The notes under the pieces were generated by a model. The model was not told the DNA's origin. It searched no databases and worked only from the letters and a program-made list of their open reading frames with translations. A program made the position numbers and the translations under genes. From Burkholderiales bacterium (GTDB taxonomy: Bacteria; Pseudomonadota; Gammaproteobacteria; Burkholderiales; Casimicrobiaceae): a stretch of 64,000 nt of DNA. This document shows, in pieces, positions 13,377-60,884 of this stretch (position 1 is the stretch's first letter; each line of letters opens with the position of its first letter). Location of the stretch: positions 24,876 to 88,875 of the forward strand of contig JAICXH010000002.1 of NCBI GenBank assembly GCA_025981645.1, written 5' to 3'.

Positions 13377-15869
13377 ATGGTCGACGCACGTCGGCAGTGG
13401 GTCGTGGCACTTGCCACATGGTTCATGTTTGGTGGGCTCGCCGCGCCGAATGCCGCTGCGCAACTTCGCGCACTGCCGCCAATGGCGTCGTGGCCGAACA
13501 CGATGACGCTGCACGGTTCGACGGTCACGGTGAGCGAGCCACAGGCGATCGCATGGCCCGAGCACCGCACGCTCACCGCGCGCGCCGCGGTCTCGATCCT
13601 GCGCCCCGGCGCCCGAGTGCCGATTCGCGGCACCGTCGAGGTATCGGCGAACACCGAGACCGATTACACGACGCGCACCGTGACCTACTCGGGCATGAAG
13701 CTCGTTTCGACCAAATTTCCTTCGCTCGATGCCGTACAGGCCGCGCAGGTCGAAGCGCAGATGCGCGACGTCATTCCCGCGCTGGGTGCGAAGCGCGTGC
13801 CAGTCGATGCCGTCCTGCTGAGCCTCAAGGAGCCACCGGCGCCACCGCAGACCATCGCGCTCGCCAACGATCCGCCGACGATCTTCTACAGTACCCGTCC
13901 GGCAAGCCTCGTCGTGTTCAACGGCGAACCGGTGATGGCGCCGCTCGCCGACGGGCTCTCGGTTGCCGTCAACACCAACTGGAGCGTGTTCGAGACGGCG
14001 GCAGGCCACAGCTGGTATCTGCTCGCCAACGGCACCTGGTTCTCGGCCCCGGCTGCGGCAGGACCGTGGGCACCGACGCACAGTCTCCCTCCGGTGTTCA
14101 AGACGCTGCCGCGCGACCCCGCGTTCGACGACGTGCGCAAGGCGATGCCGCCGCGACCGGTGCGTGCCGCGTCTGCGCCGACGATCATTGTCAGCATGAA
14201 GCCGGCCGAGATCATCGTCACCAGCGGTGCACCGAAGCTCGCCGCGCTCGCCGGCACTGCGCTCCAGTACGTCGTCAACACTCCGGTCGACCTCTTCTTC
14301 ATGCCCTCGACCGGACGCTTCTACTTCCTGACGTCGGGGCGCTGGTTCTCGGCGGCTGCGCTCGAAGGGCCGTGGACGTTCGCCACGCCGTCGCTGCCAC
14401 CCGATTTCGCGCGGATCCCGGCATCGAGTCCGAAGGGTCACGTGCTGGTGTCGGTCCCCGGCACGCCGCAGGCACAGCAAGCGGTGATGGAGGCACAGGT
14501 CCCGCGACAGGGAACGATCGAACGCAGCACGGTGAAGGTCGCAGTCACCTATGCGGGACCACCGAAATTCGTTCCGATCGCCGGCACGACGATGACGTAC
14601 GCCGTCAACACGTCGTATCAGGTGATCGACGTCGCTGGCCGCTACTACGTCTGCTACAACGCGGCGTGGTTCGTCGCGCCGTCGCCGAACGGGCCGTGGG
14701 TGCTCGCTGATGCGGTGCCGCAGGTGATCTACACGATTTCCCCGGCGAGCCCGCTCTACAACGTGACCTACGTCACCGTGTACTCGTCGACGCCGACGAC
14801 GGTGACCTACGGCTACACGACCGGCTACACGCTGGGCTATGTCAGCGCGGGAGTCGTCGTCTACGGCACCGGCTACTACTACCCCCCGTACTACTACCCG
14901 GCACCGGTGCCTGTGTTCATTCCGTATCCGTATTCGTATTCGGGCGCCACCTGGTACAACCCGAGCACCGGCGCGTGGGCGCGCGGCGGCACCATCTACG
15001 GTCCCTACAACACCGCTTCGGGGGCGCGCTACTACAACCCGAGCACGGGCGCGTGGGCGCAGGGAGGCGCGATCTACGGACCCAACGGAGGTGCAGGCGC
15101 GTTCTCCTACTACAACCCGACGACCGGCACCTATGCGCACGGGAGTGCGTCGTGGGGGGCCGACGGCGGCAGCGGTTATGCGAATTTCTCGAACAGCAAG
15201 ACCGGGCGCTCGGGCTCGACGCAACAGAACTGGAACGAGTACGAGCGCTGGGGCTCGTCGACGATCACCGGCCCGAATCAGACCGTCAACACGAAGAGCG
15301 GCGCGAATGCCCAGGGCAAGGCAGGCGGATTCAGCTTGAGCACCGGTGCCGAGGGCGCCGGCGCCAAGGGCGCGAACGGCAACAAGGGGGGTGCAGTGAA
15401 GACCGCGGGCGGCGACACCTACGCCGGCGCCGACGGGAATGTCTACAAGCACACCGACAGCGGCTGGTCGAAGTGGAACGACGGATCATGGCAGCCGGTG
15501 ACGCCGCCGTCGAACGCCACACACCCGGCAAACGGGCAGGGCCAGACAGGGAGCGGCACGCAGGGGCAGGGTCAGCATGCGCAGGGGCAGGGTCAGCACG
15601 CACAAAGCGCGAACGCGCCGATGCGCACGCAAGGTGGAACGCAGAAGCAACCGTCGAGTGCCGCGGCACCGGCGACGTCACAGCCGGGGGCGGCGCCGAG
15701 GCGCCTCGGGCAGGGTGGGTCCGCGCAGCCTGCGCCGGCGCGCGGGTCCGCCGAGGGTGGCGCGCCGTGGGATCAGCTCGAGCAGGACCGGCATGCGCGC
15801 ACCGAAGGCGCGCAACGCCAGCAGTCCTACCGTTCGCAGCGCGGTGGAGGAGGGCTGCGGTTGCGTTGA
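13377..15869 (+). CDS. Large secreted repeat protein with WF-x-A...GPW modules, YYNPSTGAW repeats and Gln/Gly-rich tail
   Basis: ATG at 13377, signal-like N-terminus (VVALATWFMFGGLAAPNAAAQ), internal repeats visible in the translation. Confidence 0.75.
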   Translation: MVDARRQWVVALATWFMFGGLAAPNAAAQLRALPPMASWPNTMTLHGSTVTVSEPQAIAWPEHRTLTARAAVSILRPGARVPIRGTVEVSANTETDYTTRTVTYSGMKLVSTKFPSLDAVQAAQVEAQMRDVIPALGAKRVPVDAVLLSLKEPPAPPQTIALANDPPTIFYSTRPASLVVFNGEPVMAPLADGLSVAVNTNWSVFETAAGHSWYLLANGTWFSAPAAAGPWAPTHSLPPVFKTLPRDPAFDDVRKAMPPRPVRAASAPTIIVSMKPAEIIVTSGAPKLAALAGTALQYVVNTPVDLFFMPSTGRFYFLTSGRWFSAAALEGPWTFATPSLPPDFARIPASSPKGHVLVSVPGTPQAQQAVMEAQVPRQGTIERSTVKVAVTYAGPPKFVPIAGTTMTYAVNTSYQVIDVAGRYYVCYNAAWFVAPSPNGPWVLADAVPQVIYTISPASPLYNVTYVTVYSSTPTTVTYGYTTGYTLGYVSAGVVVYGTGYYYPPYYYPAPVPVFIPYPYSYSGATWYNPSTGAWARGGTIYGPYNTASGARYYNPSTGAWAQGGAIYGPNGGAGAFSYYNPTTGTYAHGSASWGADGGSGYANFSNSKTGRSGSTQQNWNEYERWGSSTITGPNQTVNTKSGANAQGKAGGFSLSTGAEGAGAKGANGNKGGAVKTAGGDTYAGADGNVYKHTDSGWSKWNDGSWQPVTPPSNATHPANGQGQTGSGTQGQGQHAQGQGQHAQSANAPMRTQGGTQKQPSSAAAPATSQPGAAPRRLGQGGSAQPAPARGSAEGGAPWDQLEQDRHARTEGAQRQQSYRSQRGGGGLRLR
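14953..15150 (+). repeat. About three imperfect ~80-nt coding repeats (YYNPSTGAWA-GG-IYGPN type)
   Basis: tacaacccgagcaccggcgcgtgggcgcgcggcggcaccatctacgg / tacaacccgagcacgggcgcgtgggcgcagggaggcgcgatctacgg / tacaacccgacgaccggcacctatgcgcacggg. Confidence 0.75.
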
Positions 15870-54266: not shown

Positions 54267-55898
54267 CGAGCGCGCGCGTGAGCGCGTCGTCCAGCGTTCG
54301 CACGGTGCGTTCGACATCGGCGAGCTTGTCGAGGCCGAACAAGCCTACGCGGAACGTGCGGAAATCGGCGGGCTCGTTGCATTGCAGCGGAACGCCCGCG
54401 GCAGTCTGCAGGCCGAGCGTGGCGAACCGCCTGCCTGATTGGAGTTCGGGATCGTCGGTGTAGCTGACGACGACCCCCGGTGCGCCGAAACCCTCTGCCG
54501 CGACGCTCGCGAATCCCCGCGCGGCAAGCGCCTCGCGCACGCGGTCGCCGAGTCTCTGCTGCGCCTCGTGCGCTCGCGCGAAGCCGAAGCGCTCGGTTTC
54601 GCGCATCGTGTCGCGGAGTCGCGCGAGCGAATCGGTGGGAAGGGTTGCGTAGTACGCGTGCGCGCCCCCCTCGTAGGCTTCCATGATGCCGAGCCACTTC
54701 TTCAGGTCGCAGGCGAAGCTCGTGCTCTGCGTCGCATCGATTGCTTCGCGTGCGCGCTCGCCCAGCATCACCAGCCCGCACGAAGCCGGGCTGCTCCAGC
54801 CCTTCTGCGGAGCGCTGATCAGGATGTCGACGCCGCGTGCGGCCATGTCGACCCAGATCGCACCGGACGCAATGCAATCGAGCACGAACATTCCGCCTGC
54901 CGCGTGGGTGGCCGCCGCGACCGCGTCGAGGTAGGGATCGGGAAGGATGATTCCCGATGCCGTCTCGACGTGCGGGGCGAACACGAGCTCCGGGCGCTCG
55001 CGCGCAATCGTCGCCGTGACCTCGTCGATTGGCGCCGGAGCGAATGGCGCCCGCGGACCCTGCCGCACCGGGCGCGCCTTGACGACCGAAAGCGACGCCG
55101 GGATTTTTCCCATCTCGAAGATCTGGCTCCAGCGATAGCTGAACCAGCCGTTGCGCAGCACGAGACAGCGGCGCCCGGTCGCAAACTGGCGTGCGACGGC
55201 CTCCATCCCGAACGTGCCGCTTCCGGGTATGACGATCGCCGAGCGCGCATGGTAGACCCGCTCGAGCGTCGAAGCGATGTCGCGCATGACGGCCTGGAAG
55301 CGCACCGACATGTGGTTGAGCGCGCGGTCCGAGAAGACCACCGAGTACTCGAGCAGTCCGTCGGGATCGATATCGGGAAGCAGGCCGGGCACCTTGGACT
55401 CCTCGTGGCGAAGCGCGCGCCATGGTGCGCGCGAAGTGACTTTAGCACGGCGCGCGGCGTCGCCCGAAGTCATCGTACGCGTTCGGCCGCACGTTAATCT
55501 AGGCATGAAAAGCGATCAGCGATCGATCCGCTTCGGACAGAGGCCATGTGCAGCGCAAGGATTCATGAGCGACGTACAACGTCACTCGCGACGCACCGTG
55601 TCCTGTCGTCTGCCGATTCCATCGCGCGCGTCGTCAGCAGACCGACACCAAGAGTGCTGACGATCTGGCGCCGATTCGCGGCGACCGGAGACACCGTGCT
55701 GTTCATCGAATCGCCTCGCGTGCCGCGCTGCACGGGAGTCGGCGCACCGATTTGCATCGAGTGCGCTGCGTTCGCCGCCGCGGCGTCGCCGCGCAGCGAC
55801 GCATCGACCCGTTTGGGAAGGCGGTTTGCACCGCCGTCGCGCACGCCCTGTCGGCGGGATCGAGTCGTCGATTCAGGTCTTCCACGTCGCCGCGCTCA

Positions 55899-55916
55899 TT
55901 GGCACGAAGCGTGCAC
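55899..55916 (+). promoter_or_regulatory. Sigma-54 (-24/-12) promoter-like element 1 upstream of prkA
   Basis: TTGGCACG-AAGC-GTGCA; GG (55901-55902) and GC (55913-55914) separated by 10 nt. Confidence 0.65.
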
Positions 55917-55930
55917 TGCCGGTCCGGCGA

Positions 55931-55947
55931 TTGGCACGCGAAATGCA
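55931..55947 (+). promoter_or_regulatory. Sigma-54 (-24/-12) promoter-like element 2 upstream of prkA
   Basis: TTGGCACG-CGAA-ATGCA; GG (55933-55934) and GC (55945-55946) separated by 10 nt; 32 bp downstream of element 1. Confidence 0.68.
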
Positions 55948-56168
55948 GCAGTCGCGTCGACACTCCTGAATGAAGGCAGCTTCGCGAACCGTTTCTTCGA
56001 TATGCGGTCGCACGATGGCGCCGGGATCCTCCGCCAGCACCACGTCAGGTCGGTGCTGGGTGGATCGGCGTCCTGCCGATTGAATTTCCACAAAAGCAAG
56101 AAGGTATGCCGAAGGCAGGGCGGGTGCTCCCCCGGCCCGCGTCCTTTGCGCACCCGACCCACCGGGAC

Positions 56169-58100
56169 ATGACCATGACGCCATTGTTGGAAGAGTTTCG
56201 CTCGACCTACTCCGCAACGCACGAGGAGGAGATGAGTCTCGAGGAGTACCTCGCGCTGTGCAAACGCGATCCGGGTGCCTACGCCACGGCGGCCGAGCGG
56301 ATGATCAAGGCGATTGGCGATCCCGATCTCGTCGATACCCGCAATGATTCGACGCTGGGACGCATCTTCGGCAACCGCGTGATCCGCCGTTACCCGGCCT
56401 TCCGCGAGTTCTACGGAATGGAGGAGGTGATCGAGCAGATCGTCGCGTTCTTCCGCCACGCGGCGCAGGGTCTCGAGGAGAAGAAGCAGATCCTCTATTT
56501 GCTGGGGCCGGTTGGCGGGGGCAAGTCGTCGATCGCCGAGCGGTTGAAGGCGGTGATGGAGAAGCTTCCGATCTACGCACTCAAGGGTTCCCCGGTCAAC
56601 GAGTCGCCGCTCGGGCTGTTCTCCCCCGAGCGCTTCGGGGCGAAGCTCGAGGCCGAATTCGGCATTCCGCAGCGCTACCTGACCGGCATCATGTCGCCGT
56701 GGGCGATCAAGCGGCTCGCCGAGTCGGGCGGCGACATCTCGCGCTTTCGCGTCGTCCGGATCAACCCCTCGGTGCTGCGCCAGGTCGCGATCACCAAGAC
56801 CGAGCCGGGCGACGAGAACAACCAGGACATCTCGTCCCTGGTCGGCAAGGTCGACATCCGCAAGCTCGAGAGCCTGTCGCAGAACGATCCGGACGCCTAC
56901 AGCTACTCCGGCGGGCTCTGCCTCGCCAACCAGGGATTGCTCGAATTCGTCGAGATGTTCAAGGCGCCGATCAAGATGCTGCACCCGCTGCTTACTGCGA
57001 CGCAGGAGGGCAATTTCAAGGGTACCGAGGGCTTCTCGGCGATACCGTTCAACGGGATCATCGTCGCGCACTCGAACGAGTCCGAGTGGCACAGCTTCCG
57101 CAACAACAAGAACAACGAGGCCTTCCTCGACCGGATCTTCATCGTCAAGGTTCCCTACTGCCTTCGCGTGTCCGAGGAAGTGAAGATCTACGAGAAGCTG
57201 ATCGATCACTCGTCGCTCGCCGGGGCACCCCGGGCTCCGGGGACGCTCGAAATGATGGCGCAGTTCTCGGTGCTGACCCGGCTCAAGGACCCTGACAACT
57301 CGAGCATCTACTCGAAGATGCGCGTGTACGACGGAGAAACGCTGAAAGACGTCGACCCGAAGGCCAAGACCCTGCAGGAGTATCGGGATTACGCCGGACC
57401 CGACGAGGGGATGACCGGAATGTCGACGCGCTTCGCCTACAAGATCCTGTCGGCGGTGTTCAACTACGATCAGACCGAGATTGCCGCCAACCCCGTGCAT
57501 CTGATGTATGTACTCGAGCAGAGGCTCGCCCGCGAGGATCTCGCCGAGGAGTCGCGCCGACACTACGTCGAGCACATCAAGGGCTACCTGGCGCCGCGCT
57601 ACTCCGAGTTCATCGGCAAGGAGATCCAGACCGCCTACCTCGAGTCGTACTCCGAGTACGGCCAGAACATCTTCGATCGCTACGTGACCTACGCCGATTG
57701 CTGGATCCAGGAAGAGGACTACCGCGATCCGGAGACCGGCGAGAGCTTCGACCGCGCGGCACTCAACACCGAGCTCGAGAAGATCGAGAAGCCGGCCGGA
57801 ATCGCGAATCCGAAGGACTTCCGCAACGAGATCGTCAACTTCGTGCTGCGCGCACGCGCCCACAACGCTGGCCGCAACCCCGCCTGGAGCAGTTACGAGA
57901 AGCTGCGCGAGGTGATCGAGAAGAAGATGTTCTCGAACACCGAGGATCTGCTGCCGGTGATCTCGTTCAACGCCAAGGCGTCGGCCGAGGACAAGCAGAA
58001 GCACCAGAACTTCGTCGCGCGGATGGTCGCGAAGGGCTACACCGAGAAGCAGGTCCGCCTGCTCGCCGAGTGGTATCTGCGCGTGCACAAGTCGTCGTAG
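56169..58100 (+). CDS. prkA: PrkA/YeaG family serine protein kinase
   Basis: SLEEYLALCKRDPGAYATAAERMIKAIGDP, LLGPVGGGKSSIAERLK, ALKGSPVNESPLGLF, EGNFKGTEGFSAIPFNGIIVAHSNESEW. Confidence 0.94.
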   Translation: MTMTPLLEEFRSTYSATHEEEMSLEEYLALCKRDPGAYATAAERMIKAIGDPDLVDTRNDSTLGRIFGNRVIRRYPAFREFYGMEEVIEQIVAFFRHAAQGLEEKKQILYLLGPVGGGKSSIAERLKAVMEKLPIYALKGSPVNESPLGLFSPERFGAKLEAEFGIPQRYLTGIMSPWAIKRLAESGGDISRFRVVRINPSVLRQVAITKTEPGDENNQDISSLVGKVDIRKLESLSQNDPDAYSYSGGLCLANQGLLEFVEMFKAPIKMLHPLLTATQEGNFKGTEGFSAIPFNGIIVAHSNESEWHSFRNNKNNEAFLDRIFIVKVPYCLRVSEEVKIYEKLIDHSSLAGAPRAPGTLEMMAQFSVLTRLKDPDNSSIYSKMRVYDGETLKDVDPKAKTLQEYRDYAGPDEGMTGMSTRFAYKILSAVFNYDQTEIAANPVHLMYVLEQRLAREDLAEESRRHYVEHIKGYLAPRYSEFIGKEIQTAYLESYSEYGQNIFDRYVTYADCWIQEEDYRDPETGESFDRAALNTELEKIEKPAGIANPKDFRNEIVNFVLRARAHNAGRNPAWSSYEKLREVIEKKMFSNTEDLLPVISFNAKASAEDKQKHQNFVARMVAKGYTEKQVRLLAEWYLRVHKSS

Positions 58101-58131: not shown

Positions 58132-59397
58132 ATGGTCCATCTGATCGACAGACGCTCGAGCAGCCGCGGCAGGAGCGCGGTCAACCGCGAGCGCTTCCTG
58201 CGCCGCTACAAGGCCCACGTCCAGAGTGCCGTGAGGAAGCTCGTCGGCGAGCGCAGGCTCGCCGATATCGAGCAGGGCGGCGACGTGCACGTGCCGAGAA
58301 AGGACATCGCCGAGCCCTCGTTCGGCTTCGGCCACGGGGGCGACCGCGAATTCGTGCTTCCGGGCAACCGCGAGTACGTCACCGGCGACCGCATTCCGCG
58401 GCCGCAGGGCGGCGGGTCCGGCGCTGGCGGCGGCGATGCCGGGGACGGGGACAGCGAGGACGCCTTCGTGTTCGCGCTGTCGCGCGAGGAGTTCATGCAA
58501 ATCTTCTTCGACGACCTCGAGCTGCCGCGGCTTGCCCGCACCGAGCTTGGGCGTACCGAGCACCGGACGAGCGTGCGCGCCGGCTACGCCCGGACCGGCG
58601 TGCCGGCGAATCTCGCGATCGTGCGCACGCTGACGCAGTCGCTCGCGCGCAGGATCGCGATCGATGGAAGCCTCCGCCGCGAGGCGGAGGAGCTCGAGCG
58701 CGCGTTCGGCGCCGCCGCGGCAGCCGGCCGTTCGGCGCATGCGGCGCATGCCTACGCCGAGCTGCAGCGCATCGAGCGCAAGCTCGAGCGGGTGCCGTTC
58801 ATCGACGAGCCCGACCTGCGCTACCGCAACCGCGTGATGCGCCCGGAGCCGGTCGCGCGCGCGGTGATGTTCTGCCTGATGGACGTGTCGGCGTCGATGG
58901 ACGAGGACAAGAAGGATCTCGCCAAGCGCTTCTTCACGCTCCTCTACCTCTTCCTTACGCGCAAATACGGCGAGGTTGACCTCGTGTTCATCCGCCATAC
59001 CGAGGATGCCGAGGAAGTCGACGAGGACACGTTCTTCCACGACACCCGCTCGGGTGGCACCGTCGTCTACTCGGCGCTCGACCTCGCCGAGAAGATCCGC
59101 GGCGAGCGCTACGCGCGCGGCTGGAACGTCTACGTCGCGCAGGCATCGGACGGTGACGCTTTCGGGGCCGATCCGGCGCGCAGCGCGCGCTTCCTGCGCG
59201 ACCGCTTGCTCCCCGCGGCGCGCTATTACACGTATCTCGAGCTGGCGGCCGAGTCCGATTCGGGCCGCTCGTCGACGCTGTGGGCCGAGTACGCGCGGGT
59301 GGCGACCGAGTCCGGCAATCTCGCGATGCGCCGGGCGACCCGCCGCGACGAGATCTACCCCGTGTTCCGCGAACTCTTCCGCAAGGACACGCAATGA
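58132..59397 (+). CDS. yeaH: YeaH/YhbH family protein (DUF444, VWA-like)
   Basis: IDRRSSSRGRSAVNRERFLRRYKAHVQSAVRKLV, VMFCLMDVSASMDEDKKDLAKRFFTLLYLFLTRKYGEVDLVFIRHTEDAEEVDEDTFFHDTRSGGTVVYSAL. Confidence 0.94.
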   Translation: MVHLIDRRSSSRGRSAVNRERFLRRYKAHVQSAVRKLVGERRLADIEQGGDVHVPRKDIAEPSFGFGHGGDREFVLPGNREYVTGDRIPRPQGGGSGAGGGDAGDGDSEDAFVFALSREEFMQIFFDDLELPRLARTELGRTEHRTSVRAGYARTGVPANLAIVRTLTQSLARRIAIDGSLRREAEELERAFGAAAAAGRSAHAAHAYAELQRIERKLERVPFIDEPDLRYRNRVMRPEPVARAVMFCLMDVSASMDEDKKDLAKRFFTLLYLFLTRKYGEVDLVFIRHTEDAEEVDEDTFFHDTRSGGTVVYSALDLAEKIRGERYARGWNVYVAQASDGDAFGADPARSARFLRDRLLPAARYYTYLELAAESDSGRSSTLWAEYARVATESGNLAMRRATRRDEIYPVFRELFRKDTQ

Positions 59398-60884
59398 CCG
59401 CCCTCTCGCACGGCGCCGACTGGGATTTCGAGCTGATCGAGCGCTACGACACGGCGATCGCCGGCGTCGCGGACGAGTTCGGCCTCGACACCTATCCGAA
59501 CCAGATCGAGATCATCACGTCGGAGCAGATGCTCGACGCCTACGCGTCGTCGGGTCTGCCGGTCGGCTACCCGCACTGGTCGTACGGCAAGGAGTTCATC
59601 AGGAACGAGCAGGCCTACCAGCACGGGATGCAGGGCCTCGCGTACGAGATCGTGATCAACTCGGACCCGTGCATCGCGTATCTTATGGAAGAGAACACGA
59701 TGGCGATGCAGGCGCTCGTCATCGCGCACGCCTGCTACGGGCACAATTCGTTCTTCAAGGGCAACCATCTGTTCCGGCAGTGGACCTCGGCGGACGCGAT
59801 CGTCGACTACCTGGTGTTCGCCCGGCATTACGTGATGGATTGCGAGGAGCGCTACGGTGCCGCGGCGGTGGAAGAGGTGCTCGACGCCTGCCACGCGCTG
59901 ATGGCGCACGGGGTCGATCGCTACCGGCGGCCGGCGGCGCCGACGCTGAGGGCCGAGACCGCCCGGCTCAAGGCGCGCGAGGAGAACCGCGAGCGCCAGT
60001 TCAACGACCTGTGGCGGACGTTGCCCGGCACGCCGGCGGCGGCGGCGTCGAAGGCGAAGCGCGAGGTGTTCCCGCCCGAGCCCGAGGAGAACATCCTCTA
60101 TTTCGTCGAGAAGCATTCGCCGAAGCTCGAGCCGTGGCAGCGCGAGCTCGTGCGCATCGTGCGCAAGCTTGCCCAGTACTTCCACCCGCAGGGCCAGACC
60201 AAGGTGATGAACGAGGGCTGGGCGACGTTCTGGCACTACACGATCCTGAACCGCCTGCACATGAAAGGCCTCGTCGACGACGCCTTCATGATCGAGTTCC
60301 TGAAGAGCCACACCAACGTGATCGCGCAGCCGGCGTTCGACTCGCGCGGCTACGGTGGGATCAATCCGTATGCGCTCGGCTTTGCCCTGTTCTCGGACAT
60401 CCGGCGCATCTGCGAGCGACCCGACGCCGAGGACCGCGCGTGGTTCCCCGATCTCGCCGGCACCGACTGGCGGCGTTCACTCGATTTCGCGATGCGCAAC
60501 TTCAAGGACGAGTCGTTCATCGCGCAGTATCTGTCGCCGCGGCTGATGCGCGAGTTCCACCTGTTCGCGGTGGCCGACCGCGTCGAGGACGACGCGCTCG
60601 TCGTCGACAGCATCCACGACGAGCACGGCTATCGGCGCCTGCGCCGGCTGCTCGCCGCGCAGTATGCGATCGAGAACCGAGTTCCCGACGTGCAAGTCCT
60701 CCGCTACGACCGTGACGGCGACCGCTCGCTGACGCTGCGCTTCGCGCGGCGCCGCGGTCGGCCGCTCTCGGACGCCGCCGAGGAAGTCGTCGCGCATCTG
60801 CACAGGCTCTGGGGCTTCGCGGTGCGTCTCGAAACCGTCGATGGCGACGAGCAGGTCGGCCGCGCGCTCGAGTGCGCGGCCTAG
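59394..60884 (+). CDS. SpoVR family protein (YcgB-like)
   Basis: IEIITSEQMLDAYASSGLPVGYPHWSYGKEF, LAQYFHPQGQTKVMNEGWATFWHYTILNRL. Confidence 0.94.
   Translation: MTALSHGADWDFELIERYDTAIAGVADEFGLDTYPNQIEIITSEQMLDAYASSGLPVGYPHWSYGKEFIRNEQAYQHGMQGLAYEIVINSDPCIAYLMEENTMAMQALVIAHACYGHNSFFKGNHLFRQWTSADAIVDYLVFARHYVMDCEERYGAAAVEEVLDACHALMAHGVDRYRRPAAPTLRAETARLKAREENRERQFNDLWRTLPGTPAAAASKAKREVFPPEPEENILYFVEKHSPKLEPWQRELVRIVRKLAQYFHPQGQTKVMNEGWATFWHYTILNRLHMKGLVDDAFMIEFLKSHTNVIAQPAFDSRGYGGINPYALGFALFSDIRRICERPDAEDRAWFPDLAGTDWRRSLDFAMRNFKDESFIAQYLSPRLMREFHLFAVADRVEDDALVVDSIHDEHGYRRLRRLLAAQYAIENRVPDVQVLRYDRDGDRSLTLRFARRRGRPLSDAAEEVVAHLHRLWGFAVRLETVDGDEQVGRALECAA

Follow-up and report, generated by a model that had tools for sequence, protein, structure and literature searches.

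The prkA-yeaH-spoVR operon is widespread and linked to starvation, and its function is poorly known. The head gene of the E. coli and Salmonella yeaGH operon, yeaG, is orthologous to prkA and is preceded by a sigma-54 site (PMC4591121, PMC3844500). A single -24/-12 element, ATGGCATGAGAGTTGCT in E. coli, is listed there (PMC4591121), with about 93 bp between the predicted start and the gene. The order prkA-yeaH-spoVR is found in R. etli and B. cenocepacia (PMC3188799, PMC5491218), and expression of the operon decreases in the ntrC mutants of both. In R. etli, where prkA depends on RpoN1 and NtrC, it also decreases in the rpoN1 mutant (PMC3188799), and in the B. cenocepacia ntrC mutant the log2 decreases of prkA, BCAL1664, and spoVR were 4.0, 3.4, and 3.0, respectively (PMC5491218). 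The parts of these two reports that concern the prkA operons mention no tandem element.

We analyzed a 64-kb stretch of DNA from a Burkholderiales bacterium (hereafter, the window), in which the prkA operon is preceded by two sigma-54-type elements, P1 and P2. In contrast to yeaGH, which has one element, the window has two about 31.5 bp apart, and its leader exceeds 200 nt. Sigma-54 control of prkA is known, whereas the phase-locked tandem arrangement is new: none of 80 named loci had a tandem upstream of prkA, and no described tandem of this kind was found in the open-licence literature searched. The features of the locus are as follows.

55571–55660, no strand assigned: conserved upstream block, GACGTACAACGTCACTCGC ... 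GAGTGCTGA, a candidate activator-binding region from the five-genome alignment
55899–55915, plus strand: P1, the upstream sigma-54 -24/-12 element, TTGGCACGAAGCGTGCA, present in five genomes only
55916–55930, no strand assigned: spacer between P1 and P2, 15 bp (14 bp in L016), conserved in length and diverged in sequence
55931–55947, plus strand: P2, the downstream sigma-54 -24/-12 element, TTGGCACGCGAAATGCA, retained in 11 of the family's genomes
55958–56174, plus strand: 217-nt leader between the predicted P2 start and the ATG of prkA, strongly conserved in sequence
56175–58100, plus strand: prkA (yeaG), serine protein kinase (NF011999, 1227 bits, cut-off 576), with a conserved start
58132–59397, plus strand: yeaH, PRK05325 family
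59316–60884, plus strand: spoVR family gene (NF008737, 839 bits, cut-off 679), the true start of which is probably near 59394

The family-model matches confirmed that the downstream operon is prkA-yeaH-spoVR, as stated in the original prediction made from the sequence of this DNA. That prediction had also described two GG-N10-GC elements 32 bp apart and about 220–270 bp upstream of the prkA ATG, and direct reading of the sequence agreed with it. GG and GC are located at 55901–55902 and 55913–55914 in P1 and at 55933–55934 and 55945–55946 in P2, with 10 nt between them in each case, as in the consensus YTGGCACG-N4-TTGCW, and the start-to-start distance is 32 bp. The two elements lie 228–276 bp upstream of the ATG at 56175, a start conserved in relatives. 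Both sites are near-perfect, with G in P1 and A in P2 at position -15.

A scan with an RpoN weight matrix, which had been suggested as a check, placed P1 and P2 among the three best-scoring positions of the 64 kb on both strands. Their scores were 17.4 and 17.1, respectively, against 19.3 for the consensus; these values are relative, the matrix having been drawn up from general knowledge of the sigma-54 consensus. The third strong match in the window, CTGGCACGCGCTTCGCA, lies on the minus strand at 13787–13803 and scored 17.4. Sites scoring at least 17 occurred at 0.08 per window in simulated 64-kb sequences with the same dinucleotides, and no same-strand pair with both scores at least 14 within 60 bp was obtained in 100 simulations. 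The pattern YTGGCAYGN5TGCA had three matches in the whole 2.76-Mb assembly, two of which are P1 and P2. Across the genus, however, the count of this pattern was near that of the reversed control pattern, and a looser tandem pattern yielded 9 matches in 399 genomes of the order versus 6 for the reversed control. Because the pattern counts approach those of the reversed controls, a string match alone cannot carry the claim. The pair of strings is rare by itself but is no proof; the proof lies in its conservation.

Among the 64 genomes of the family, 15 carried prkA, and 11 of these, from the genus of the window and two sister genera, had an element at the P2 position. TGG and ATGC of P2 were invariant in the 11 genomes, and GG and GC never changed. 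The substitutions fell at -27, -21 (C/T), -20 (G/A), N4, and -11 (G or C in several genomes), almost all of which are loosely constrained positions of sigma-54 promoters. L012 and L017 had a single sigma-54 element located closer to the gene. Only five genomes had P1, namely the window genome (L027), L028, L010, L011, and L016; the remaining six that have P2 showed nothing resembling it at the corresponding place. The PrkA tree was compatible with a single gain of P1, with weak support (52/70). Since P2 occurs in 11 genomes and P1 in 5, and the tree is compatible with one gain, P2 appears to be the ancestral, core promoter of prkA and P1 a later, clade-specific addition. The expected conservation of the -24/-12 elements in relatives was thus observed, with substitutions of the sigma-54 type, and the original reading is refined in that the two elements are not equal. 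The phase-locked pair, together with close relatives that have one element, constitutes a natural experiment on the effect of a second site on output, which also bears on whether two sigma-54 polymerases can share one enhancer.

P1 and P2 stood out as conserved islands in the five-genome alignment. Over three lineages (L027, L010, and L016), the invariant columns were 13 of 17 in P1, 11 of 17 in P2, 3 of 15 in the spacer, 31 of 150 (about 21%) in the upstream region, and 87 of 150 below P2. The variable positions of P1 were -27 (C/T) and N3. The distance between P1 and P2 was 32 bp in four genomes and 31 bp in L016, whose spacer is one base shorter. This spacing is close to 31.5 bp, or three helical turns, and has been maintained as the spacer sequence diverged. 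Strict tandem patterns were little commoner across the order than a reversed control, as would be the case if P1 were a chance match or a leftover without a role. This explanation is highly improbable, however, because all 13 consensus positions of P1 were invariant over three lineages in otherwise diverged DNA, for which the rough chance is 1e-9 (a figure that takes shared ancestry into account only through the background rate), and because its spacing to P2 was kept.

P1 contains a perfect palindrome, GCACG-AAG-CGTGC, at 55902–55914. GCACG-N3-CGTGC was perfect in all five genomes with P1, with AAG, ACC, and CTG as the middles. CG was conserved at -16/-15, where sigma-54 does not usually favor it. 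This finding and the location of P1 adjoining P2, which would suit a repressor, are consistent with P1 being an operator. The palindrome would then bind a dimeric regulator centered near -50 of P2 and block or tune P2, and the likeness of P1 to a -24/-12 element would be incidental or dual-use. We consider this unlikely, because the left flank of the palindrome is always YTGG, the signature of the sigma-54 -24 box, and does not mirror the right half. In addition, no regulator is known for the palindrome, and outside the prkA locus and the loci of a MerR-like gene the string is about as frequent in the genus as expected by chance.

In 11 genomes (loci L176–L185 and L187; L182 belongs to the window genome), the string search in the genus revealed this second conserved site, which precedes the MerR-like gene by about 150 bp. 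Its pattern is TGGCAYR-NANC-S-TGCW, with G or C at -15. The site varied at -27, -21, -20, -15, and -11. In several genomes its palindrome was gone, but the sigma-54 positions, including GG and GC, were retained. Because the palindrome is dropped and GG and GC are kept, sites of the P1 shape in the genus were read as sigma-54 sites, which argues against the operator explanation for P1. The same loss led us to reject the idea that these sites are a common operator for the MerR-like regulator. A conserved CGTGNARCAC-like motif follows the sigma-54-type site before this MerR-HTH gene.

The genome encodes a full-length RpoN (TIGR02395, 463 bits, cut-off 277), the presence of which the original prediction had required. 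It also encodes four activators whose AAA+ domain is intact, and further activators may exist, the assembly being 87% complete. One is NtrC, which scored above both curated cut-offs (TIGR01818, 685 bits, cut-off 558.6). The other three are a PEP-CTERM response regulator, a GlrR-like activator whose best model was NF011695 with a score below its cut-off, and one of the response-regulator type without assignment to a curated model. According to the original prediction, the two promoters could compete for one activator or answer to two. Extra activator genes were considered as the reason for P1 and rejected: G008 and G017, which have a single element, carry as many as the tandem genomes. The precedents in R. 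etli, B. cenocepacia, and E. coli/Salmonella make NtrC the likeliest activator.

A search upstream in the window for the NtrC-type dyad GCACC-N5-GGTGC gave no signal above shuffles. NtrC-type sites with one mismatch were found in L010 and L011 and, one each, in L013 and L017; the window was at the chance level. The inverted repeat GACGTACAACGTC, which had been proposed as a speculative upstream activator site, is present at 55571–55583, but its dyad was kept only in the nearest relative, L028, and the proposal was not supported. The conserved block at 55571–55660, which includes this repeat, is about 300–390 bp from the P2 start. It was kept in L016 despite differing neighboring sequence, and in L011 the distance is shorter by about 140 bp. 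Such persistence and shift are how an enhancer would behave, and the block is regarded as a candidate only. No sigma-70 promoters and no Rfam RNAs were found in the upstream region, and the upstream DNA had no match in a plasmid collection.

The explanation we favor, and consider probable, is that P2 is the ancestral promoter and P1 a later-gained binding site for the sigma-54 holoenzyme, that both are served by a shared remote activator, most likely NtrC, and that initiation at P1 and occupancy of P2 exclude each other. The analysis shows the sequence and how it is conserved, the restriction of P1 to five genomes, and the presence of the RpoN and NtrC genes; the polymerase binding, the start sites, the activator, and the exclusion are inferred. 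P1 would be located about three turns upstream of P2 on the same face, and under nitrogen limitation the same activator would open both. The geometry of the -12 elements predicts starts near 55926 for P1 and 55958 for P2, and the leader from the P1 start would be about 249 nt long, compared with 217 nt from P2. In a sigma-54 intermediate, the downstream DNA to about +15 is at the polymerase jaws (PMC6028918). Counted from the predicted P1 start, +15 would reach about 55940, inside the -24 box of P2. Since the P1 open complex would reach this box, initiation at P1 and a polymerase bound at P2 would exclude each other, and there might be barely enough room for a closed complex at each element. 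P1 could raise polymerase loading at the operon or serve as an alternative start.

Against the favored explanation, P1 has G at -15, where T is usual. The chance-level result of the NtrC-type search in the window and the weak tree support for one origin of P1 also count against it. P1 may bind the sigma-54 polymerase without firing, by analogy with other sigma-54 binding sites, which are often transcriptionally silent (PMC4591121). In that case P1 would be a secondary site for loading, feeding P2 or shielding it. Besides the frequency of silent sites, the fixed phase of P1 and its closeness to P2 are in line with this role, and it has been proposed that sites close to a functional promoter make that promoter faster to find (PMC3844500). 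On the other hand, the match of P1 to the consensus equaled or exceeded that of P2 in all five genomes, so its inactivity would need another cause, and we regard such a silent loading site as a tentative possibility. It is a narrower form of the favored explanation, and our estimates for the two overlap, as in both P1 binds the sigma-54 polymerase. Two further arrangements appear quite unlikely: paired closed complexes three turns apart that one activator opens alternately, as a switch of rate or start site, or a dual-use P1 at which a regulator competes with the sigma-54 polymerase.

The predicted P2 start and the ATG were 215–234 nt apart in 10 of the 11 genomes with P2 and 181 nt apart in L013. 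By eye, several genomes seemed to have a leader folded so as to mask the ribosome-binding site, but this reading was rejected, as the folding energies were mostly no better than those of shuffled sequences (one of eight had z -2.4). The leader is strongly conserved in the window and in L010, L016, L025, L029, L033, L034, and L021, and in some genomes TTGGGA before the ATG could base-pair with CCCAA farther upstream.

Elsewhere in the order, two same-strand sigma-54-like elements, 22–36 bp apart and intergenic, were also observed at L124, L122, and L123, but these differ from the prkA tandem in their genes and spacings. At L124, two elements 23 bp apart on the reverse strand at 1500–1540 precede a gene for an aldehyde dehydrogenase, and a divergent gene lies upstream. 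Of the two elements, the upstream one is the palindrome GCACGCATCGTGC, the same as that before the MerR-like gene. At L122, from another genus of the order, about four sigma-54-like repeats stand in a row at 1370–1540 on the reverse strand, upstream of a TonB-receptor-like gene, and the best two are 22 bp apart.
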